NCBI GenBank assembly: GCA_011033025.1
Contig: WFMF01000062.1
Span: 619,366-683,365, forward strand
From: Beroe forskalii
Taxonomy: Eukaryota > Ctenophora > Nuda > Beroida > Beroidae
DNA length: 64,000 nt
Reading direction: 5' to 3'
Positions within the stretch are counted from its first letter, which is position 1. Each line of letters opens with the position of its first letter. Shown here piece after piece: positions 30,619 through 63,836 of the stretch. The notes beneath the pieces are model-generated. The model made no database searches, had not been told where the DNA came from, and worked only from the letters and a program-made list of their open reading frames with translations. The position numbers and the translations under genes are program-made.

Positions 30619-31020
30619 ATTGGGGTGGGTTATGAGTCGATTGGGATGGGTTATGGGTGGAAGGGGTGGGTTATGAGCATTGGGGTGGGTTATGAGTGGA
30701 TTGGGATTTGAGGTGGGTTATGAGTTGATTGGGATGGGTTATGAGTGGAAAGGGGTGGGTCATGAGTGGAGAGGGGTGGGTTATGAGTGGAAAGGGGTGT
30801 GTTATGAGGGGAAAGGGGTGGATTATGAGTGGATTGGGCTGGGTTATGAATGGAAAGGGGTGGGTCATGAGTGGAGAGGGGTGGGTTATGAGTGGAAAGG
30901 GGTGGGTTATGAGGGGAAAGGGGTGGGTTATGAGTGGATTGGGGTGGGTTATGAGTTGATTGGGGTGGGTTATGAGTGGATTGGGCTGGGTTATGAGTGG
31001 AAAGGGGTGGGTTATGAGAG
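30619..31020 (+). repeat. 21-bp minisatellite GGGTGGGTTATGAGTGGAAAG, forward block
   Basis: About 19 copies, with variants of the last bases (ATTG, GAGAG). The complement of the same unit forms the longer array at 31550-32885, so the two blocks can pair across a 530-base spacer. Confidence 0.95.
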
Positions 31021-31549
31021 GGCGGGGCTTAGTCACTTCCCATAAAATAAATAGGGAGTTTGTAACAAAAGGGTCAAAAAATCAGCCTTTTTCGGCCCTC
31101 AGGAGGCCCAATTTCAAAGGCCCGTGGAGTCCAGGTGCGACCACTAAACAACGATATTTCATACTACATCAATAGCCAGTCGACCATACTACAGTCACTT
31201 CAAAACCGACGGCAACCTCATCCAGGCCTTGGTGTCCAACCCAAAATGCTAAGAATGACGTAAAATCGATATTTTGAAATTTTTGGGGCCGAAAAATCGA
31301 CCGAAAAATCGAGTTTTCATTAATTGTTTCTAGACTGAAATTTCACGAAACACAGAGTAATGAAAGATATTTTTGATGTAGCTCAACGGGCAGTGCTCAA
31401 AAAATGACTGATTTTTCCGCCAAAATCGACCGAAAATGGAATTCACCCAAAACTTGGTAGGTATAAATGTGCACCTGGCGTGCCCAAGGTCGCGCCAAAA
31501 ACGAACCTCGAAATGCCCAAAATTTTGATAAACACAAATTAAGGTGGCC

Positions 31550-32885
31550 CCATCAACTCATAACCCGCCCCTTGCCACTCATAACCCACCACAATCAACT
31601 CATAATCCACCCCATTCCACTCATAACCCAGCCCTTTCCCCTCATAACCCACCCCATTCCACTCATAACCCACCCCTTTCAACTCAAAACCCACCCCTTT
31701 CCACTCAAAACCCACCCCATTCCACTCATAACCCACCCCTTTCAACTCATAACCCACCCCTTTCCACTCAAAACCCACCCCATTCCACTCATAACCCACC
31801 CCATTCCACTCAAAACCCACCCCTTTCCATTCAAAACTCACCCCTTTCCACTCATAACCCAGCCCTTTCCCCTCATAACCCACCCCTTTCCCCTCATAAC
31901 CCACCCCATTCCACTCATAACCCACCCCTTTCCACTCTTAACCCACCCCTTTCCACTCATAACCCTCCCATTTCCCCTCAAAACCCACCCCATTCCACTC
32001 ATAACCCACCCCTTTCAACTCAAAACCCACCCCTTTCCACTCAAAACCCACCCCATTCCACTCATAACCCACCCCTTTCCACTCATAACCCACCCCTTTC
32101 CACTCAAAACCCACCCCATTCCACTCATAACCCACCCCATTCCACTCAAAACCCACCCCTTTCCATTCAAAACCCACCCCTTTCCACTCATGACCCAGCC
32201 CTTTCCCCTCATAACCCACCCCATTCCACTCATAACCCACCCCTTTCAACTCAAAACCCACCCCTTTCACTCCAAAACCCACCCCATTCCACTCATAACC
32301 CACCCCTTTCCACTCATAACCCACCCTTTCCACTCAAAACCCACCCATTCCACTCATAACCCACCCCATTCCACTCAAAACCCACCCCTTTCCATTCAAA
32401 ACCCACCCCTTTCCACTCATAACCCAGCCCTTTCCCCTCATAACCCACCCCATTCCACTCATAACCCACCCCTTTCAACTCAAAACCCACCCCTTTCCAC
32501 TCAAAACCCAACCCTTTCCACTCAAAACCCACCCCATTCCACTCATAACCCACCCCATTCCACTCATAACCCACCCCTTTCCACTCATAACCCACCCCTT
32601 TCCACTCAAAACCCACCCCATTCCACTCATAACCCACCCCATTCCACTCAAAACCAACCCCATTCCACTCAAAACCCAGCCCTTTCCACTCATAACCCAG
32701 CCCTTTCCCCTCATAACCCACCCCATTCCACTCATAACCCACCCCTTTCAACTCAAAACCCACCCCTTTCCACTCAAAACCCACCCCTTTCCACTCATAA
32801 CCCACCCCTTTCCCCTCATAACCCACCCCATTCCACTCATAACCCACCCCTTTCCACTCAAAACCCACCCCTTTCCACTCAAAAC
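31550..32885 (-). repeat. 21-bp minisatellite, complement of the 30.6-kb block
   Basis: About 63 copies of CCACTCATAACCCACCCCTTT-type units (variants AAAA for ATAA, CATT for CTTT). Higher-order runs of about 270 bases recur. Because the unit is 21 bp and lacks stops, several frames on both strands are open for more than 100 codons. I regard these as unselected, not as genes. Confidence 0.95.
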
Positions 32886-33499
32886 GGACCCTATGCTCCT
32901 CAAGCGACCTTTTCTTTCACTTTTGGAGCATTTCCCTTATTTTTAAGCATTTCCCTTATTTTTAAGCATTTCTCAATTTTAAGGGGATCCCTCATTTCTG
33001 CATACGGGCCAATGTCAGTTTGCTCTTTCCTTACAAACCATCATTCGTGTATAATTTTATCTGCCATGTCTTAGTAGCTAGGATTAATTGTACCCTGACT
33101 TTCACTCGATAGTTTTGACTCAATAGCATTATTTCGTGATATTTTGTACATACTATTGTACATACCTTTACCCAAAATATCACACTTGAGCCATGTTTTA
33201 CATTGAATTGCTTTATGTGATCATATTGCGATAGATATCCATATCAGTTTGCTCTTTCTTACCTATCTACCATCAATATATCAATAATCGAGCTATCATT
33301 TTACCATGCCATATTGTACGAGTAGCTTGGATTAATTCAACCCTGACTTTCAGTTAACACTCAACAGTTTTGTCCTTTTTATCATTTGGTGTTATGGTGT
33401 GCGTCAAACGAACTTGCCGAAAATATCACGCCATGCGACAGCGCAGCTTGAGACATTTAAATAGTTCATCGTGCGAGGCGAAGCTGAGCACTCTAAATC

Positions 33500-47430: not shown

Positions 47431-50205
47431 ACTGCATATCTCATAATGGCTCCACCATGAGAAATTCTGTAAAATTGCTATTAAGCCAGTTTTCTGAACC
47501 TGACTTTTGTGTTTCTAGGAGACATTTCTTAAGGACAGATTTTATCAAGTTTTTTCATCACTATCAAAGCCGAAATTCTCAAGTCTAGAATTTTTCTAAA
47601 ACAGTTCCAGAGCCATGGTGCCCTATATGAAAAGTAATTTGATGGCTCTGGTGTGAGGAACCTGTTGCCACTACGCTTTGATATATTGAGGGTCTGATAG
47701 ATAGGCTTGGGCTCCTTAGACTGAACTATTTTTACTAGTTCCATGATACTTCTTAATCGATATAAATTTTGTACTGTTAATAAATTTTCATGGGTGAAAA
47801 GAGGCTTGGACGATTCTCTACAGAAAAATTCTTTGCCAAGTTTTTGCTTATCAATTGGACGAGCTCTTACACAGGTGCGAAATTTCTCTAGAAATGAGTT
47901 AGTATCACCGAACATTATTCTTATGCATTTCTTTTGGGTACGGAAAACAGGGTCTAAGTTACTTAAAGCAACCCCACCCCATACAGAGATAGCATAACTA
48001 AGATGTGATTCGAAGAGTGAATGATAAATTTGTTTATGCAGCTTTGCTGGTAGACAGTTCACAATCCGGTATAGTCTGCCACATGCACTTTTAGTGTCTT
48101 GTTAAGCTTTGCAATGTGAGGTTTCCATGACAAATCTTTATCTAGTAACACTCCTAGGAATTTAGCCTCACTAACTTTATTAATTATTTTCCATAAACAG
48201 ATATTTGAAGGTGGTCAGGAATGGAAGTACACAAATTTTTCTTACTGGGGCTTAAAAAAGCATGTAACAGCATTTCTTAGTATTGATAAGTAAAAGGTTA
48301 GATTCCATATACTCTGATACCCTTGACAGAACTAAGTTAGCATTTGAATAAGCCTCTTCTACGTTATTTCCAGTAACAAATATGTTAGTATCATCAGCAA
48401 ATAAAATAAATTTGCCATTTTCAGAACAGTTACAAATGTCATTAATGTAGTATAAAAAGTAGTGGACCCAGTACTGAGCCCTGAGGCACCCCAAATTGCA
48501 CGTCGAGAGTTTCAGAATTTTCTTCTAGTACATTAACTAGTTGGCTTCTACCAGAAAGGTAGCTTCTAATTAGGCTCAGTGCCTTTCCACAGACTCCATA
48601 GTTATTCAACTTACAGGCCAGTATTTCGTGATCTATAGTATCAAATGCTTTACTCAGGTCAATAAAGATCCCCAGAGTATACTTTTTTGACTTAATTTGC
48701 TCTTCTATATAGGATACTGAGTAGTTTAAAGCATGGTTTGTTGAGTGTCCTTTCTGAAACCGTACTGGTTATCATAGATAATTTCATTGTCCTCAAAAAA
48801 TTGATACATTCTGTTGAAGATTACCTTCTCAAAAAATTTTCCCGAAAATTGGTAAGGTAGAAACAGGTCTATAGTTTTCAAGCAGTTCTTCATTTTTCTT
48901 TTTTGTAGATCGGTGTAATTCTGCCTGTTTTAAGTTCAGCTGGAAAGTATCCTTCAACCATACATTTGTTGTACAAGATTGATAGAATTGGTGCAGTTAT
49001 TTTAGCAGTTAATTTAATCACATGGATTGGTATATCGCTAGATTTTCCTAGTTTAAGTTCGTCAATTATATTCTCTATTTCCTCTTCAGTACACTCCCTA
49101 AGGTTAAGTTTATCAGTGATTTTATGATGTAGGAAGTCTTTATAATTTAATAGATTATTTATTCTAATGCCATCATCGTCAATATAAGCTTTATTTAATG
49201 AGGGAGCTAATGAAACGAAGTATTTATTGAATTCATTAGCAATTACTCTTCTATCTGTAATGCGTTTATTGTTTATAAGAAAGTTTGCCTTAACATGAGA
49301 TTTATCTTTACCTCGCACACTGTTAATAATTTTCCACAGCTTCCGACTATCTCCTGCACATTCATCTACTTTGGAGCCCAAATATGTGGCTTTTCGTTGA
49401 CTAATTAAGAACTTTAGCTTCTTTCTGTATTCAGTAAATTTAGTATGTTTTGCATTTGTATCTGCACAATTATAACAGACACAGTTTTTACGATCAGTCT
49501 TCTTGATAAATCTGTTAACACAAACTTTCTTCTTTGCAGATTCCCATAAATTGAATAATTTGTCTTTGTTTCTTATAGAAGCAACTAATCCTGGTGTAAT
49601 CCATGGATTGTTAACTATGGTGCGCTTAGATTGCTTAGGTTTATCAAGTTTACATGATTGGTCTAATTTGGTTTGGAAGATATGAGCAAATTCGGTGAAA
49701 TTATTCGGTGCTTTGTTATTTAGTTCATCTTTCAGTTCGTTTCCAAATTTCTCTACGTTAGAAGTACAGTAATCATAATATTGCACGTGTGTACATTTTG
49801 GCATACTATGTGGTAGTATCCCTTCACAGATTTGAAACAGTGCCAAGTGGTGAGAGATATGAAGTCTAAGAGTACCTGATAATGTAGTATGTTCGGGACT
49901 ATTGGTGAAGATATTGTCAATACATGATTTCCTACAGCCAGGTTTTTCATGGGTGTATGTAGATATAAGAGGATACATTCCTAAGGCAAGGGTGCAGTCC
50001 TCAAGAAGTTGAGCTTCTCTCGAGTTGTCCCTGTGCAAATCTATGTTGAAATCACCAATAATATGTACTGACTTTTTGGGCAATTGTGCTATTATTTCAT
50101 TTAGTTCACTTATAGCTTCACTTAGAACACCACTAGGGGGACGGTAAACTACACCAACTGTGGACAGCTCATTACCCTTGTTTATGGTTACAAAAAGAGT
50201 TTCAA
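47431..50205 (-). mobile_element. Decayed non-LTR retrotransposon (LINE), 5'-truncated, CR1/L2/Jockey-like
   Basis: Reading the minus strand from 50205: the C-terminal part of the apurinic endonuclease (VGVVYRPPSG, then IIGDFNIDL), then a reverse transcriptase with NQYGFRKGHST, IFIDLSKAFDTIDHEIL, GVPQGSVLGPLLF and the catalytic FADDTNIF, then a C-terminal region with PWLWNCF. Frameshifts break it near 48890, near 48740, at the base lost just after GPLLFIL (about 48455) and near 47530. The start of the endonuclease and ORF1 are missing. The FADDT and GVPQGS boxes are shared by CR1, L2 and Jockey-like LINEs; I cannot place it more finely. It is dead as sequenced. Confidence 0.9.
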
Positions 50206-51305
50206 GGTAGAATTTTCTTAGTTAGATCAAACTGTAACAGCATGCAAATTTTTTCCAGGAAACTAGTAAAAAATTCCTCACGGGGACCACATGGTCATCC
50301 TCAATAGAATCAGAAATTCTCTGGCATGACCCGTAATGTTGTGTAGAATAGGGATTTCTTCATCAATTTTTCAGAAATAGGACAAGTTGAGTGGTCATGA
50401 ATATCTTCAATTGTAACAATTAAAACCTCATGTTCTTGTGATACCTTAACCTCTGAAAATATAGTTGTCATACATTCATTATAGTCATACATTCTGAGAA
50501 GTTTATTGTTATAGAATAATAGAACATACAACTGACACACAACATGTCATATCACTTTGTCCTTATCTGAACTAAATCAATAAATTAATTAATTAAAAAT
50601 CACTAAATTAATTAATCAGAAAATGCACTGAATCTATAATAGGTACGACAATCTACTGTCTGCTATTATGTGAAATACAATATACAATATACACAGCAAA
50701 TGGCAATGTAAAGGCACAAGCACTGCACACAGTGACTGTATGTGAGCTAGTAACACCATACTTATAGGGAGAAAGTGACGGTTCCTGCTCAGACTGTTGT
50801 GCAATGTTGTGCTCAACTCATCCTATTTCTGATTAAATTGATTTTGACCCAACTAATACATCAAGTGGGCTAACACTTTGCTTTGGCTAGTCTTGGAGCC
50901 ATCACAACGACCAAGATATGCACCAAGACTGCACATAGCAAACTGCAATTTCTGCCTTGCACAGAGCCAAATATGAATGTTTTCGTGAAACCATGTGTAC
51001 CTTGGGCATACAAATAAGCTATCACACAAAATGAGTTTTAGGAGTTTTTCTCTATCATAATTATTATTATGATCAACACACATTAATTAGATAATTGACT
51101 GTTTTTCTCTAGGGTTATATCATTAGCTTTATTTGTAATGATCATTTATCCTAGCTCTAAGAAAAATGACAATCTGAAATATCCCGGGCTGCTGCTATGT
51201 CACACAGGTTAGTTCTTATTAAGGAAGAGATGAAAATTTTCTATTTTGTAAGGTATAATACTTAGGTGCAAATGCCATATTATGTTTCGCTGATGAAGTG
51301 GTATG
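50206..51305. other. AT-rich spacer between the LINE and the GGAGGCT element
   Basis: Only short open frames are present, none with recognisable motifs. Minus-strand frames 50310-50540 and 50853-51083 are open for about 75 codons but have no splice or family support. Confidence 0.4.
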
Positions 51306-54877: not shown

Positions 54878-57800
54878 TACATATAACCTCCAATGGAATG
54901 AAGCACAGAGCCAAATCAAAGAACTCTTGGAGTATGAGACAACTCCTGAAGGGCAGAAGCCTGAGACTGTGAGTGAGACTAGCAAGGATTAGTACTTTAT
55001 AGTTCTATATCTTCTGATACTGTGCTTAATAATTGATATCATTTCTTGTTCCAATAAATCGAATTAAAGGGATCCTGAAGTTTTTGGCGAGTTTCAAAAA
55101 ATATCCATTTTATTATCTAAATCAAATCTCAAAACATAAACAAAAAGGTTGTTGAAAATCTGGCATTTCTATCACCTTCCAGTGTGCTAATATAGAGGTG
55201 CGAAGTTTCGTTGTGGTCGAGGGCGCTACGTCATCACGAGGCATGGTCAGAGTAGACTGCACACAGTAGTGTGAAAATACTGTGTTAAATACCTATCTCT
55301 ACTATAACAGTAGGGACGTGTCAGTACCATACTACCATGCTTTTCATGCTTTTTGCATCATGATTGCTAAAATTACGAATGCTATCATATTTTTTGATAA
55401 TTCAGGATATATTATGATCAGCAGGGCAAAAACATACATCAGCTTGGCATAGGTAAGTTTAGCTATGTATGGCTCGATTTCCTCATCTTCCATCATCTTA
55501 TCATCTTCCCCTTTGTTTCAGAAAACGCTTGTTCATTTATTATCTCGTTTGACATTTCAACGTGTCGCTTGATTCTGAGCTCTAACCAAAGGATTCAAGT
55601 TACAAATGACATAAAACTAGGACGTAGGAACTAGGTATTAATAAGTTGATGGAAAATTAAGAACCTAAAAACTGCCAATTTACCTACTGTGCTTGATATG
55701 ACAACTGATCAGTGATCATCCATTGCTTTCGGATTTCGTCTTCAACCTACCATTGCGAGAAATTTGACGGTTGATTAGATACCGTCGGCTTCCTAACGGA
55801 CTGGCAGCTCTACTCTGCCTGATGAACCTGGGTCCTGGGGAGTGAACGGGACTTGTTCTCATCCGCTGGGTTTCGGCCCATCCCCCTCTAAGAAGAAGAT
55901 ACTGTCGTTCGTCATACCGAGAATCGTTGAATCCTCGATATTCCACATAAAATTTAACACCAAGTTCTAACTATCTAAATAGAATGCACTTCTCTTTCAA
56001 ATAGACTGGAACTTGAGATTTAGCATTTAAATCCAATTATAATACCGAAATCTTCCGTATCGTACGATATAGAAGTATATAAGCATAGAGAATCTCTATT
56101 ATACTTCCGCAGTATCTCTATTATAGAAACTGCAAAAGGTTATATTAAAAAAGAGTAGAGTAAAGCTAGAAGAAAGCTAGAAGAGGAGGGCATGAGTTAT
56201 TGCAATAGCTTCGAATCAATCAAGAGTAAAGAGTTTGACGACACAATATGATTGTAATGGGACTCGGTCGGTCTTGACTGCTGATATCCAAAATGCATTT
56301 CAAGTCCCTTTCAAGTTTTTGTATTTTGATTACAGCTGTCGGAATTATTTACTAAGTAGCAGTCCAACCTCCTCGCGCTCTGTTATTTACCACTCTAACC
56401 ACAAGATACCTTTTAGTAAGGGAACAGTGCACCACTTTAAAGCGTGATAATGATGCCACCTTGAAACGCCTATTCTCCATGCACAACCTATCTACTGCGG
56501 TTTGAGCGATCCCATGCCTCTTGATGACGTAGCAGCCATTTTACACCTCGTTGCGAATATGCTGTATATGCGCTATATTTACCAATTCAACGATCGGGAT
56601 GTGTTTGTATTGGTAAAACTAAAGGTTTGCCGGGCAAATCATGGAAAAACAAAATTTTCGATTTTTAAACTTCAGTGCCCCTTTAAACACCTCAAATTTA
56701 TCCCAGGACCGAGTATCAGCCTTCCAGACAGTAGCTGTCCTTTACATCAAGTACATCCAAGTGTTCAGGAAGCTAGAGGAATGTTTCTACCAGATTGTCC
56801 ATCCTCAGAAGAGGATAGTGTTGCGGCATGTATTGGATGGTACCATGGGAAGGTGTGTTTGTCTGAGTAGAATATTAATGAAAGTCATAAAATTTATAGA
56901 TTTACCAAGCCATTTTGGGCAGTTTTGAGGGGTGCTGACAAGGTGAAAATCTTCAGCACTCAACCACATTGTTATCTATAAAACAATCTCGAAATCAATC
57001 ATTAGGTATCACACAAGTATTTTCCATAAATAAATTAATGGGGTCTAGTATGTTAGTATATTTATCTGCTATACAGATAAATATACTAAAACACTTAAAT
57101 AGCTCACAATAAAAGAGAGATGTGTGTACTAAACACCTATATCATTGACATGATGTGTTATTTCTGGCACTCTGCCAGGCTCCTTGAGCTGAAGAACGAG
57201 ATGGTGAACCTAGAGTTCTCAGAGTACCACTTCTTTGATGACGTGCTCTCTGACATGAAGCTAACTCCCGCAGACATTGAAATCCCCGTTCCCAGATACT
57301 TTACCCAGGTACTGCTGTTTTCTGAGTTTTAGCACAACTCTTCAGGAGTTGATCACCAATATCTCGCTTAAAATCAATCCAACTATCCATATAAGGGCGT
57401 TTACACCTCATGATAAAATGATTAATATCGGATATCATGCACCCTATTTTTGCAGATTTCTAGCCACTTCCCCCCTCTGCAATCTGTTGTAAGTTGTTGC
57501 ATTTTTATCTACTAACCACTGTACAGAATTGCTGTTTGTGATGATCTAACCATGTGGTAACGTGTTGCGTGATCCATACTTTCAATATGTTCATCCCCAG
57601 GATAATGAAAAGGACATCAAAGATCGCATGAAACTCATGGCAGAAACACTTGCGAAATACAGACTGGACGAAACAACCGATAAGAAGGAGGAAATAAAGA
57701 TGAGCCTCGAAGAAGCAATCAAAATCATCCAGGTTGGTGTGATCGTTGGAAAATAGTATCTGAGAATTAGCCCGAGATTTTAATCGTGTTTAATATCTTA

Positions 57801-60800
57801 AGTTCTTAAATTCTACTCTCTGCCATCCCTGTACATTTCTTTTAACCCCTTTTAACCTCTGGTTTTCCAGATAGTCTCCACATTAAGGAACTTACGTTAT
57901 TTTCCGCATTTGATAAGTTAATAATACACCAGCCTGCTGGTTATTGGGGGCATTGAAAATTAGATAATTTGTCAATATCATAGTGCATCTGTGTTCTGTA
58001 AGCTATTAAAAGTTTCGATTACCAGTCCCACGTCCCAGGTGCACGAGCGAGCGAGGCAAGGGTGTCTGCGGGCTAAGTTCATGCGGGAGATCCGGGCTCA
58101 GGAGGAGCGAGAGAAGATGCTCTCCCTCCAAGGGGCGTCCACAATGGACCCTGACGTGGCGTCAACCTACATCCAGAAGGTGTGGAAAGGCTACTCCCAG
58201 AGGAACAAGACCTCAAAGCTTAGGGAGGAGGAACTGATCTTTATTGGCATGCAGCCAAACTCAGATACGCCGTCCAAACACAAGGATTCCCCGCTAAACA
58301 AAGTGGCGCGCAGAGAGGTAAAATCATTATATTGTAGTAGTTCAGTAATTACACTTCAGATAACATCATCTCACTTTGAGAGCGGAAAGCTTGAAAATCT
58401 ATCTTCCATTGTTAGCTGCTTGCAGAAGTACTTTGTTAACTGTAATTAGTGTTGTAATTAGTGTTGTTATTGCAAGTTGTTTATTTCCACCCTTTACGCC
58501 ATGTCCAGTGTCCATTAACACCCCTGTAACCAGGAGGAGCGTGTCTTGATACGCCCCTTTTACACTCCTGTTACACCCCTGTTACACCCCTGTAACACCC
58601 CTGTAACACCCCTATAACACCTCTGTTACACCCCCGTAACACTCCTATAACCAGGAGGAGCGTGTCTTGATACAGTCCCAACATGAACGGGAGTACCAGG
58701 ATGCCTTGGTGAACATCAAGGAGAAGATCAGAGAAGCAGAAGGTCCGGATATCAAGGAAAACATGCAGGACCAGATCAGACAGTGGTTCATCGAAACTAG
58801 GTAGCAAGAAATGTTCAGATCTGACTGTTATCAGTTTTAATTTGAAATAGCCAAAAGAAGTTCATGTAGATGTTGTTTTACTGTAATTTCATTGTTTCAA
58901 TGTTCATTAGATAAGTATCTTTAATGTTAATTGGTGAGAACCGTTTCTTCTTCTTCAGTCTACTCAGAAAAAAAACTAATAATTTTGAAGTATATCAGTC
59001 ATAGAATGAGACTCAAAAACAGTTCAATACTGCTGCAATTATTGTTGATTGGCCACGTGATCAAAGTACCTACTCCAGTACTAATTAACTTTTCCAGGGA
59101 TGCGACAGGCAAGTTCCCTGACTACCCGTCAGATGACGAGGGTGGCTCTGCAGCCATCTTCAAAACCAAGGAAGAAGGTGGTGAGGAAGGTGGAAATGGC
59201 GAGGGAGGCAAGAAGAAGGGGAAGAAGGGAAAGAAGAAGAAGGGGGAGAAGAAGAAGAAAGGTGAGAAGAGTTTTAAACTTTACAATACTACAAATTTGA
59301 GATTATGAACTAAGTATGCCAAGCTTAAAATGTGCTGATGAGTAAAGAAATCAATTCACCATTTGATGGGGCACACTCCATTGGTTTTCGTGGCACGTTT
59401 TATTTATAAAAAAAGAAAAAAAAAGAAAAAAAAAATCTATTCACCATTTTTTAATTAAAACTTTTTTCTCACTGCACTGAGCTAGTAATAAGAGCTATGA
59501 ATAAGAGTTTTTCCTTATCCTTATCAATTTGAAGGAAAGAAGAAGGGAGGTAAGAAGGGGGAGGCTCCGGCGGGTGATGATGAGGAAGGCTTCAGAATGG
59601 CTCCCTCCTGTTTCATGCCTGGAATGGACGAAGCAACCCAAACTTATGAGGAAATCTGGAAATACCGGGACGAAAATGAGAACTTCCAGCAGAAATACGA
59701 CGCAGAACTCATCAAGGAGCTGAAGAGGTGCGTTTCAACTGATTTCTTAGTGTTTCTCAGTTATCAATTGAAAATGTTTCCTTTCTCTAGAACGCTCGTT
59801 CCGTTGATTAAAAGTGGGCTTATACGTTTTCTCGCTTTGTAGGGGCGAAGTAGAATCTGAAATCAGAGTTCAAGTTGATGATTTGATGAGGCAGGAACTG
59901 AAAAACTTGAAAGCTGTACGTATATCGCCATACATGATCGACACTAATTCTCGTTTCATTTATCGCATCATCTCATGCACATGCTTCCATCCCTCACCAA
60001 ATTATCAAACTTCATTTCATTGATATCTTTCATCCTATCAATTTCATCCTATCAATATTGCCATGCATGATCGACACTGATTTTCCTTTCATCTATCACT
60101 AAATTCACGTCATTACGATGTTTAAGTTTCCATACCTCACCAAATCATCAAACTTCATATCATGTCGAAATCTTTAATCCTTATCACTCTGTTTTCCAAA
60201 TCATTCAACTCCTCCAATTCGCCAAATTATCTAGCTTTCCATATAACATAACTTCATAAGCACTGCACCATTACATTTCATAAAGGATCGAAGTGGAAAA
60301 CGAAGTGAGGCTTCTCGTTGATGCTCAAATGAGAGATGAACTCAAACTTCTGAAAGAAGTAATTAATAATTATCATTTTCACATTCTTACATTCACTCAA
60401 AATGGGGGGGATGAAGCCCAAAAAAAACCAAGCCCCACCCTACTTTTCCGATTCTTGGGCTAGGTTTTTTTTGGTTTTTTTTGGGTTACATTTTATTAAT
60501 TTCTAGCACCTTTCCAAACGATTTTTAGGTTAAAATTCGATTGTTTTATGATGTCTACCATATGACTGTAGATTCACAGGAGCTTGGTATGTAGCCTAAA
60601 CGACCTTTAATTGTGTAAGTTACTGAATATAATTGAATATTTTCACTCATCTGTCATCTAATCATTCTGAAATTGGTCTCTAACTCCTTACACTGGAGTC
60701 TGGTGGGTACTTTTTCCAGGTCAGGTCCAATCGAGCTTAGCCTACGGGGTCATATTACTGGTCTAGGACCTAAATGTTTATCAAAAGCTGTTTGAACATG

Positions 60801-63800
60801 GTCCTTTTTATAGAGTTATGAACTTATATGAGCTTCTTGTCAATTGTATTTTACGTACTTACTTAGGCTGATCCTCAGCTTTATTGCTCCTGCTTTATTG
60901 AGTCCTGGAAGACCTTTTTTGGACCTAACATTCCTCCCTGCTGAACCAAGGCCAATCATATCCTAATGCTACCTGACTGAGTGACCCTAACCCCTGGGGA
61001 TACTTTACAGAACCTTTTCGGGCCATTAATTTTGAGCATATTACAACTAGAGGCATATACATCGCAACATTATTACCAGAAGGTGCAGCGCTAGCCCTGT
61101 ATGGAGCCCTACGGTTTTCAGTTCCTTGTTTAATGAGCCATGCAGCTAGGACATCCACCACATTCAGCCAGGCAAGAGTCTTGCCTGGCTGAATGTGGTG
61201 GATGTCCTAACTACATAACTATAAACTATGTAGGTTCTCTCCACTCCAGCATGGACATAAGTTGCATATTATATACCGCCAGCACACAGGAAATATTTCT
61301 TTTTGCTTTGGAGGGTAGGTGAATCAAGGGCGAAACCCTTACCAACCCCAGAGAAAATTTGACTGACCTTTTTCTGATACCTATTTGACATTTCACTTAC
61401 CCCTAGCAAGAAGTTAAAACCTGAGTGACCTTTTTGCCTCTTCTGACTGCAATAGTGGTCCCTTTATGACCATTGGCGACTTCCTGCTGACCCTTGGCTG
61501 TCCCTTAATAACAACTGAATGAGTGATTATCTAATGTCTTGATTGTCCTCACTCAACTTCTTCCCTCACAAGCCTTTTGATCCCATAGTAGCATGGCTAC
61601 CTGTTGCTTAACCTTGTCTAACTCCTGGCTCCTTCTGACCATTACAGTGATATTGGACAATCATAAGTGACTGTCTCCCTGGCGACCCTTGGCTATCCTT
61701 TGAAATGGTGACTTTTCCAGTGCAAAACACCTTGTTGATCTCAGATGACACTAGTCTGAGCCATGAGCAAACCAGTGAGCCCTAAGAAACCCCCTGGTTC
61801 ACTAGCACTTGGCAGTTTGCAGGGCACCCATGTCCTTATTTCAGCACTGAGTGGCCTCCTGGCCTGGTGATTCAAGTCTGACCACTACTAACCCCCTGCT
61901 GATCATGCTGGCTGACCCTCGGCAACTCTTGAGCAGTGCTTTGCTGATAGTTCACCAAAACAATGCCTTAATGTACTGATTATGTCATATAAAACACCAC
62001 AAATCACCCAAAACATCGATAAAACTAACGAATATTGTTTGAAACTATAGTAATATCAATAACAACACATTAATAGCATCAACAATCCATATTGGCATGA
62101 AAAAGTCCAATTTTTTGAAAAAAAAAACCTAACCCAAAAAAAACCAAAAAATACCAAAAAAAACCAAAAAATACCAAAAAAAACCAAAAAATAAAAAACC
62201 AAAAAAAACCAAGGCCCACCCTACTTTTCCGATTCTTGGGCTAGGTTTTTTTTGGTTTTTTTTGGTTTTTTTTGGGCTTCATCCCCCCCCAAAATTCAAC
62301 AGTCAACATTATCATTTGTTCCATAATTTTCATTTCAGAATTTTTATGTATAAGTACATTAGCACAGCTTCAAAATTGAATTTTGTTTCGATTTATTTTA
62401 AAAAATTGTAGACTTTGTATTCCTTTGTTAAATGAAAAAACTCAGGCCATAGAACGTGACAAGGGTAAGAAAGGAAAGAAAGGCAAGAAATCTGGAAAGA
62501 AAAAGGTATATTTCTATTTCCTTTTTATCTAATTTTACGTTTTATGCAGGCATTGCAAAAAGATATGGGTAAAAAGGGCGGCAAGGGTTCCGCTAAAAAG
62601 AAGGTATTCCTTCCGTGAAATGTGAAGCAAGCTTTTCTAATATCTCATCTTTTTTATTTTGAATTTATTTAAACAAAAGGGGCTTCCACGGCTTGCACTT
62701 TATATCGCAAAGTGGAAAATCTTTGTTCGTTACTCTCAATGTAGGTGTGAGACTTATTACTTAAAGTCTTACACAGTAATTATAGTGATTAAATGCACGA
62801 GTCAGAAATGATAGGTAGACCTTTTAACGTTATGTCTGTGAACTCCCCTTTTCTGTTTAAGTTTGGTATGTATAGTATAGGAAAGGTCAGTGGACTGCTA
62901 CTTTGCACTGGTATTCTACCATCATTATATATATTTCGTTCAAGTTTAGGCTCTCTTAACCTACATGTAGGTTAATTTGCGATTAACTACTGAAGGGGGC
63001 TGGGGGGGGGTCTAAGGTCGATTTTCGGTTTTTTGTTGTTTCTGATAGATCTGAGCGCCAGCTACCAGTAGGTTTCACCGCATCAAAAAATATTGAGCCG
63101 AAGTTATGAATTTTTCAAATCGCGATTTCGCCTGTATTTAACAGATTAGTAAAAAATTAGTAAACTGTGAACGGCTTCTCCTCGTGAAATTAGTGCACTT
63201 ATCAAACTCGGCTTCGCCTCGTGTGATTAGTGCTGTTATTAGCACTCTTCGTAAAATGCTTCGTAAAATTACAGCGACAATACCCCTACAGGTCGTTAGA
63301 TTAGCGTGCCTTATTGGCCCTTTTTTAACCGGCCTTAAGGAAAAAAACGACTTTGAGATTTTCGTCCAAAGGGCCGGTTAAAAAAGGCCGGTTAATGTGA
63401 GGTCAATAAAATTAATAAAGGTCAGATGAAACTTTTATTACTTGGCTTATGTGCAGTAAAATTCATTTTGCCATCATTATATATAGCTTATTAGCTTTCG
63501 TTCTCCTCTATCAGAAACAAAAAAGGGAAATCGACCTCAGACCCCCCCCGGCCCGCTTAATTGGTGTTCTATCATTGGTTTTATCATTATAACGTCTAGG
63601 GTGGAAAGGGTAAAAAAGGTAAAAAGAGTGGCAAAAAAGGAAAAGACTTAACGGCTGATCGGTAAGCGCGCATGGAAATGTCACATTCTGACATCTGCTA
63701 AACCTCTCAATAAGAGGACGCATTATTGAATGATTCTCTGATTTGCATGCTCAATAATCAGTATTTAGGGCGGGAAGAAGAAGGATAAGAAAGCCGGTAA

Positions 63801-63836
63801 AAAGGGGAAGAAGGAGAAAGATTTGACTCCAGACAG
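54878..63836 (+). CDS. IQCA1: IQCA1/DRC11, 5' half of gene, running off the window
   Basis: DRC11 is an AAA-family subunit of the nexin-dynein regulatory complex on doublet microtubules of motile cilia. Exons, with matching GT/AG borders and phases: 54878-54968, 56707-56852, 57179-57308, 57601-57732, 58039-58317, 58655-58800, 59098-59261, 59535-59727, then alternative pairs 59843-59915 or 60286-60358, 62446-62505 and/or 62550-62603, 63600-63661 or 63769-63836. The protein runs [55 protein letters not shown], an IQ motif ([13 protein letters not shown], calmodulin-binding type), [10 protein letters not shown], a Lys/Gly-rich insert, an EELKR-like helix and KEKDLTPDR, all as I recall for IQCA1. 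The AAA ATPase domain should follow beyond 64000. Donor GTAGCA after 58800 is weak but in phase. Confidence 0.93.
55078..56692. mobile_element. PiggyBac-like non-autonomous element in a DRC11 intron
   Basis: TTAA flanks both ends (55074-55077 and 56693-56696). The termini are AGGGATCCTGAAGTTT and the complement of AGGGGCACTGAAGTTT. TTAA duplication with a short AGGG/CCCT-ended TIR is typical of piggyBac-derived MITEs. No transposase frame. It ends 14 bases before exon 56707, so the polypyrimidine/branch region of that exon partly comes from the element. Confidence 0.8.
58530..58654 (+). repeat. Partial duplication of an exon start plus ACACCCCTGTA minisatellite
   Basis: AACCAGGAGGAGCGTGTCTT, GATAC at 58528-58552 is an exact copy of the acceptor and first codons of exon 58655-58800. 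The two are separated by about nine units of ACACCCCTGTA-type sequence. The upstream copy breaks off after GATAC. Confidence 0.9.
59843..60358 (+). other. Duplicated exon pair A of DRC11
   Basis: Exons 59843-59915 and 60286-60358 are both 73 nt, both enter in phase 2 and leave in phase 0. Their 24-residue products align without gaps, sharing 14 residues (EVE.E.R..VD..MR.EL..LK pattern). Skipping or including both changes the frame, so one of the two must be used. Confidence 0.9.
60414..62290. mobile_element. 1.9-kb TIR element in a DRC11 intron
   Basis: The ends are GGGGGGGATGAAGCCCAAAA and its complement, with AAAAT on both sides (60409-60413 and 62291-62295). Both ends also contain CCCACCCTACTTTTCCGATT in the same orientation followed by CTTGGGCTAGG. 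The right end has a (CCAAAAAATA)n run. No transposase frame is visible. Confidence 0.85.
61147..61209. repeat. 63-bp perfect hairpin
   Basis: TAGGACATCCACCACATTCA, GCCAGGCAAGA and its exact complement flank a single G. It lies inside the 60414-62290 element. The outer bases (TAGGACAT...ATGTCCTAA) resemble those of the 38-bp palindromes in the arms. Confidence 0.95.
62446..62603 (+). other. Duplicated exon pair B of DRC11
   Basis: Exons 62446-62505 (20 codons, [12 protein letters not shown]...) and 62550-62603 (18 codons, [12 protein letters not shown]...) are both phase 0 at each end, so either or both can be used in frame. The intron between them is only 44 nt, close to the lower limit for spliceosomal introns. 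Confidence 0.85.
62990..63560. mobile_element. About 560-bp MITE in a DRC11 intron
   Basis: Inverted ends of GGGGGGGTCTAAGGTCGATTT with GTTTCTGATAGA lie at 63002-63050, and their near-complement at 63508-63550. The interior carries the GGCCGGTTAAAAAAGG block also found in the giant-repeat arms. Confidence 0.8.
63600..63836 (+). other. Duplicated exon pair C of DRC11
   Basis: Exons 63600-63661 (62 nt, ends GKDLTADR) and 63769-63836 (68 nt, ends EKDLTPDR) both enter in phase 0 and leave in phase 2. The downstream copy keeps the KEKDLTPDR sequence I recall from vertebrate IQCA1. Using both shifts the frame. Confidence 0.88.

Follow-up and report, generated by a model that had tools for sequence, protein, structure and literature searches.

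Does a gene for a ciliary protein in the ctenophore Beroe forskalii choose between paired exons three times in succession? The question is raised by a 64,000-nucleotide (nt) stretch of genomic DNA (contig WFMF01000062.1; the whole stretch analysed is called the window below), near the end of which three neighbouring exons are each followed by a look-alike, in the order A A' B B' C C'. By homology, the gene is DRC11 (IQCA1), which encodes a component of the links that join microtubule doublets in motile cilia. We consider it likely, as a prediction from sequence, that the six exons represent three tandem mutually exclusive pairs of this single gene, an assessment that also covers the means of exclusion and the ciliary effect proposed below. 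The elements concerned are the following.

59843-59915, plus strand: exon A, 73 nt, phase 2 to 0
60286-60358, plus strand: exon A', alternative to A, 73 nt, phase 2 to 0
62446-62505, plus strand: exon B, 60 nt, phase 0 to 0
62506-62549, plus strand: B-B' intron, 44 nt, with four yUnAy branch-point candidates
62550-62603, plus strand: exon B', alternative to B, 54 nt, phase 0 to 0
63600-63661, plus strand: exon C, 62 nt, phase 0 to 2
63769-63836, plus strand: exon C', alternative to C, 68 nt, phase 0 to 2

Each of the six exons is preceded by AG and followed by GT, and all six frames are open. As expected of mutually exclusive exons, the members of each pair are similar in sequence and length (73/73, 60/54 and 62/68 nt) and equal in phase. 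Joint inclusion would be prevented or harmful as well: joining A to A' places an in-frame TGA in the second copy, C and C' behave likewise, and B and B' are separated by only 44 nt. Joining B to B' keeps the frame, both lengths being multiples of three, and translation of all six exons in a row runs into stops. A preliminary description of this DNA had given the same order, coordinates, matching phases and GT/AG borders, all of which were borne out exactly and recur on a second contig, C528; its claim that neither A and A' nor C and C' can be included together without a frameshift also held, with a TGA on each double inclusion. Duplication of the whole block, from ABC to ABCABC, is ruled out by the order of the exons.

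The six exons continue a series of constitutive DRC11 exons that lie upstream in the window.

56707-56852, plus strand: constitutive exon e_a, whose protein is identical in C528
57179-57308, plus strand: constitutive exon e_b
57601-57732, plus strand: constitutive exon e_c
58039-58317, plus strand: constitutive exon e_d, whose C528 copy has insertions and deletions (indels)
58655-58800, plus strand: constitutive exon e_e
59098-59261, plus strand: constitutive exon e_f, which holds a first Lys-rich stretch
59535-59727, plus strand: constitutive exon P, ending in phase 2

Exons e_a to P joined to A-B-C form a single open frame of 462 residues. This model had no Pfam match at an expectation value (E) of 0.01 or less, and it matched six protein sequences at E ≤ 0.001: 9fqr_Ok (E 6.7e-133), 8j07_11 (E 4.8e-132), which is named Dynein regulatory complex protein 11, 8glv_Ea (E 3.3e-86), 8th8_L, 9e5c_1p and 9y6s_8J, the first two matches spanning model residues 2-462. 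We take chain 8j07 to be the human protein and chain 8glv that of Chlamydomonas. The AAA domain that follows the Lys-rich loop in this gene is encoded past the end of the window, which is also the end of contig C714; on C528, two joined downstream exons gave PF00004 with E 5.5e-9. The identification as DRC11 in the preliminary description is thus upheld by the DRC11 chains of solved axonemes. A whole-genome protein search at E ≤ 1 returned ten matches, of which seven belong to two haplotypes of this region and three are weak (E 0.05 to 0.7), and so revealed no second DRC11 locus.

The members of each pair resemble one another beyond what composition would give. In global protein alignments, none of 20,000 residue shuffles reached the observed score for A/A', B/B' or C/C' (z = 7.8, 5.2 and 6.1), in keeping with the proposal that these are tandem duplicated exons with similar products, both members of each pair being intact in two haplotypes. 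At the DNA level, the observed score was reached by 0 of 5,000 codon shuffles for A, 6 of 5,000 for C and 41 of 5,000 for B, which makes the B pair the least certain duplicate. When 17 exon peptides (13 from the window and 4 from downstream) were compared by tblastn at E ≤ 0.5, A and A' matched each other (E 1e-4 to 4e-4); B and B' did not, nor did C and C', and their pairing therefore rests on the shuffles, the phases and position. The remaining non-self matches were taken as chance: e_a had a single one (E 0.47) and the downstream exon d2 had six (E 0.27 to 0.46). No other convincingly duplicated DRC11 exon was found among these 17 peptides, which run from 56707 through exon d4.

The pairs are also old. 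Third codon positions differ at 11 of 24 sites between A and A', 12 of 18 between B and B' and 15 of 19 between C and C', against 15 of 48, 8 of 36 and 4 of 38 first and second positions, and about 35-45% of the columns in the pairwise alignments differ. For A/A', NG86 puts synonymous divergence (dS) at 1.8 and LWL85 at 0.87, with nonsynonymous divergence (dN) of 0.35 and 0.32, respectively; NG86 returns no finite dS for B/B' or C/C'. Because so many third positions have changed, the copies are far older than the haplotypes. Both trios nonetheless find DRC11 by themselves: the A-B-C peptide alone matches 9fqr_Ok (E 2.9e-13), 8j07_11 (E 3e-13) and 8glv_Ea (E 2.6e-7), and the A'-B'-C' peptide lands on the same segment more weakly (E 2.9e-7, 8.2e-4 and 7e-4). 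Judged from these comparisons, both members of each pair have kept a DRC11-like protein despite their age.

Contig C528 is colinear with this part of the window and carries the same six exons, followed by the AAA exons. The two differ by 4.4% on average over the four aligned blocks used, and we took C528 as the other haplotype of the DRC11 region. Across P and the six exons, all nine haplotype differences are third-position and synonymous, so that the encoded proteins are identical; seven fall in P, one in C and one in C', with none in A, A', B or B'. These last four exons together with the B-B' intron show no difference in 304 nt, and 55 mismatches were counted in 1,672 aligned intron bases between P and C' (3.3%). 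In five other DRC11 exons, ten of ten differences are synonymous (e_d was excluded because of its indels in C528).

These data bear on two ways in which the second copies might have no function. Were they relics, that is, old unused duplicates with only A, B and C entering the mRNA, the better score of A-B-C than of A'-B'-C' against human DRC11 (52.9 versus 23.1 bits) would fit; yet open frames and splice sites have been retained while many third positions changed, and no amino acid differs between the haplotypes, which leaves this explanation very unlikely. An assembly artefact, in which alleles were placed side by side, gains some credit from the presence of two haplotypes of the region in the assembly, but the copies differ at about 35-45% of columns and the haplotypes by a few percent, and both contigs carry all six exons; we regard it as extremely improbable.

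The haplotypes differ in one large stretch between A' and B.

60404-62291, no strand assigned: insertion-like sequence separating A' and B, which C528 lacks

Its limits follow from the alignment, in which window position 60403 corresponds to C528 position 13634 and window position 62292 to C528 position 13631. Its two ends are almost the same and contain many AAAAACC/GGTTTTT repeats; a long inverted repeat was noted by eye near 61150-61210. C528 has an insertion-like stretch of its own between B' and C. In its copy of e_d (C528:10728-10997), indels of -7, +2 and -4 (net -9) scramble about 20-25 residues, reflecting either a mistake in the consensus or an altered allele. The assembly totals 216 Mb and may consist for the most part of two haplotypes, each about 100 Mb; for B. 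ovata a genome size of 94.3 Mb has been estimated (PMC11184263). It does not hold every gene twice, because the DRC4 domain PF13851 and PF14772 were each found on one contig set only. Read with genetic code 4, as published for B. forskalii (PMC6991124), the mitochondrial COX1 gene has Arg at conserved positions. ARAGORN, run with the bacterial code on the mitochondrial contig, reported no tRNAs, which is weak evidence for their absence.

What could keep the members of a pair apart? The preliminary description gave no reason for B and B', which stay in frame together; distance is a likely one. The 44-nt intron between them has yUnAy branch-point candidates at donor distances of 22, 27, 32 and 39 nt. 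For comparison, we estimated introns of Beroe myosin genes from the gaps between neighbouring myosin-head matches (78 matches; pairs sharing over 12 profile positions were excluded), and all 41 introns obtained were at least 129 nt. This estimate misses introns read through inside a match, and five over-long matches were therefore read directly, yielding six introns of 117, 123, 138, 153, 174 and 183 nt. The minimum among the myosin introns of the Beroe genome is thus 117 nt (n = 47, 41 estimated and 6 read). Within DRC11, the introns upstream of P measure 273-337 nt (n = 6) and the P-A intron 115 nt. In human genes, a donor-to-branch-point distance below 50 nt has been counted as potential steric interference, a situation assigned to 57 clusters, or 9% (PMC5740500).

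Alternatively, B and B' could both be constitutive, with the 44-nt intron spliced, the loop lengthened and only A/A' and C/C' exclusive. The two exons are multiples of three and join in frame, and Lys-rich linkers would be expected to tolerate a change of length. Against this, 44 nt is well below half of 117 nt, the shortest of the 47 myosin introns, B and B' align as copies of each other, and the human and 8glv segments fit a single copy; we consider constitutive use of both exons improbable.

For A/A' and C/C', whose intervening introns are 370 and 107 nt, exclusion would rest on frame or on other factors. In the mutually exclusive arrangement that we favour, each mRNA would take A or A', then B or B', and then C or C'. 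The 44-nt intron would be too short to splice and would so separate B from B', and joint use of A and A' or of C and C' would shift the frame, meet a stop codon and lead to removal of the transcript by nonsense-mediated decay; alternatively, dedicated regulators might prevent such joint use. It is therefore plausible, on the lengths and phases of the exons and introns, that B/B' are kept apart by distance and A/A' and C/C' by frame. Among human clusters, 377 (60%) have lengths not divisible by three (PMC5740500). There is no sign of splice-type incompatibility, every donor being GT and every acceptor AG.

The same stop codons admit another use for the extra copies. As poison exons, A' following A, or C' following C, would lower DRC11 levels through nonsense-mediated decay, and the TGA produced by A+A' and by C+C' is what such a role would entail. 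A poison exon does not need a protein-like frame, however, and A', B' and C', each in its own frame, match DRC11 of other species; moreover, the B pair leaves the frame unshifted. We judge this role hardly likely. Provided that the three pairs are used as mutually exclusive exons, we lean towards free or mostly free combination, giving eight forms, over two fixed sets (ABC and A'B'C').

Several observations weigh against mutually exclusive use of the three pairs. The C-C' intron is barely shorter than the shortest of the others. The DNA-level likeness of B and B' is modest, as the shuffles indicate, and Lys/Gly codon composition explains part of the third-position bias in B and C. At positions where 8j07, 9fqr and 8glv agree, A' departs from them (Q to L in QVD and N to L in NLK). 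The primed exons carry one haplotype change in 195 nt, which compared with the intron rate has a probability of about 0.011, and two sequences give such a comparison little power; the unprimed exons likewise carry one change in 195 nt. The end of the gene is visible only on C528. Finally, no docking signal emerged from RNA pairing between flanking introns, since for the four pairs examined 81, 141, 169 and 180 of 200 shuffles paired equally well or better. Competing intron RNA pairing is one of several known means of exclusion and is not needed by every mutually exclusive cluster.

Which part of the protein would the choice affect? The gene has two Lys-rich stretches, the first in e_f/P and the second in B-C. 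B/B' and C/C' encode most of the second, and A/A' vary the segment before it, so that the choice would swap the segment before, and most of, the Lys-rich loop preceding the AAA domain. That the variable part is the Lys-rich segment in front of the AAA domain had been foreseen, and it agrees with the DRC11 alignments and with PF00004 downstream. Across the combinations, the second loop holds 15 to 20 lysines with a net charge of +13 to +16, the charge step coming from B/B'; of the 41 residues in the human segment, 16 are lysines.

DRC11 of the solved axonemes (8j07, 9fqr and 8glv) has the same order of segments, with an A-like segment and a Lys-rich loop followed by the AAA domain. Those chains carry one version of the segment, whereas the Beroe gene encodes two of each. 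Residues 431-493 of human DRC11 correspond to the 65 residues of A-B-C, leaving room for one copy of each exon product. Tetrahymena has two DRC11 paralogues (PMC10504270), DRC11A and DRC11B, and thus obtains two forms through separate genes, unlike the exon pairs of Beroe.

A Lys-rich segment of the DRC11 kind is reported to face the neighbouring doublet, in passages that do not specify the loop. We infer that the B-C loop makes this contact, and that small changes in the loop could be linked to ciliary type. A swap of the loop would then alter, from one kind of cilium to another, how firmly the nexin link holds on to the polyglutamylated doublet next to it. More specifically, and only as a tentative suggestion that we rate as possible rather than probable, up to eight DRC11 forms, chosen by ciliary type (comb plates, macrocilia, balancers, gut or sperm), might determine how tightly the nexin link grips the glutamylated neighbouring doublet. 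Cilia within one animal vary in beat and build. In mammalian sperm, differences between cilia have been attributed mainly to additional proteins and to a small number of paralogues (PMC11779644); if the present proposal is true, axoneme identity would be set through splicing, not paralogues. The swap of a Lys-rich loop would then permit a test of the electrostatic nexin-link idea (PMC10266980) in one animal with giant and ordinary cilia. It would also provide an instance of combinatorial exclusive splicing from the ctenophores, which have been described as the sister group of all other animals (PMC11184263).

Exon pairs of this type are well known and have already been predicted in a ctenophore myosin; what was not found reported is the gene, DRC11, no search having been made for three consecutive clusters. 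As the preliminary description had supposed, searches of open-licence full texts found no report of DRC11 with mutually exclusive exons, and none connecting the dynein regulatory complex with alternative splicing and exon duplication. In insect Mhc and Dscam, constitutive exons lie between the clusters. Several mutually exclusive clusters in one gene occur in human CUX1, TTN and CAMK2D, those of CUX1 being interleaved (PMC5740500), and in insect Dscam1 (PMC8042237). Beroe DRC11 resembles these genes in having several combinable clusters, but differs in that its three clusters are consecutive, without a constitutive exon between them.

The closest ctenophore case is cluster-0 of the muscle myosin gene Mhc2 of Mnemiopsis leidyi, whose mutually exclusive exons are predicted (PMC3912159). 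A Beroe counterpart (C225:1041625-1042104) lies after the P-loop and consists of exons of 226 and 196 nt, both 1 modulo 3, separated by a 58-nt intron; double inclusion leads to a stop. The Mnemiopsis cluster is thus likewise a tandem exon pair in a ctenophore, and its C225 counterpart shares with A/A' the stop on double inclusion. It differs from the DRC11 pairs in gene, in being a single pair and in affecting a loop of the motor domain, and both cases are known as predictions.

Two other myosin loci showed repeated coverage of the myosin-head profile on one strand. At C847:459219-470807, the matches cover a stretch of the profile twice (2-40 and 39-87), and at C173:214337-226949 profile positions 29 to 206 are covered twice; these repeats may represent further duplicated exons or tandem genes. 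Among other domains of the nexin-dynein regulatory complex, we examined PF13851 (six matches, five tiling one gene on C381 and one weak elsewhere) and PF14772 (three matches), and saw no duplicated exons in these two. For a glutamate receptor of the Beroe genome, full-length kainate receptors scored highest (up to 240.8 bits), and among the 60 of 272 matches listed the sole ligand-binding-domain chains were three of ML032222a, from Mnemiopsis, at 215 to 216 bits over 256 residues. The Hormiphora spliced-leader pattern gave one match with two mismatches, and its reversed control likewise gave one, so this comparison carries no information.

Elsewhere in DRC11, the start of exon e_e (19 nt, plus 7 nt of the acceptor) recurs 121 nt further upstream (58534 versus 58655). 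The region of this repeat (58527-58673) adjoins a short tandem repeat, and the upstream copy is a possible decoy splice site. Beyond the gene, the window contains long tandem arrays at 30671-33074, which can be read on either strand as THNPPLSTQNPP-like repeats and are probably a satellite. On the minus strand at 47529-50221, open frames resemble, by eye, the endonuclease and reverse transcriptase parts of a non-LTR (long terminal repeat) retrotransposon.

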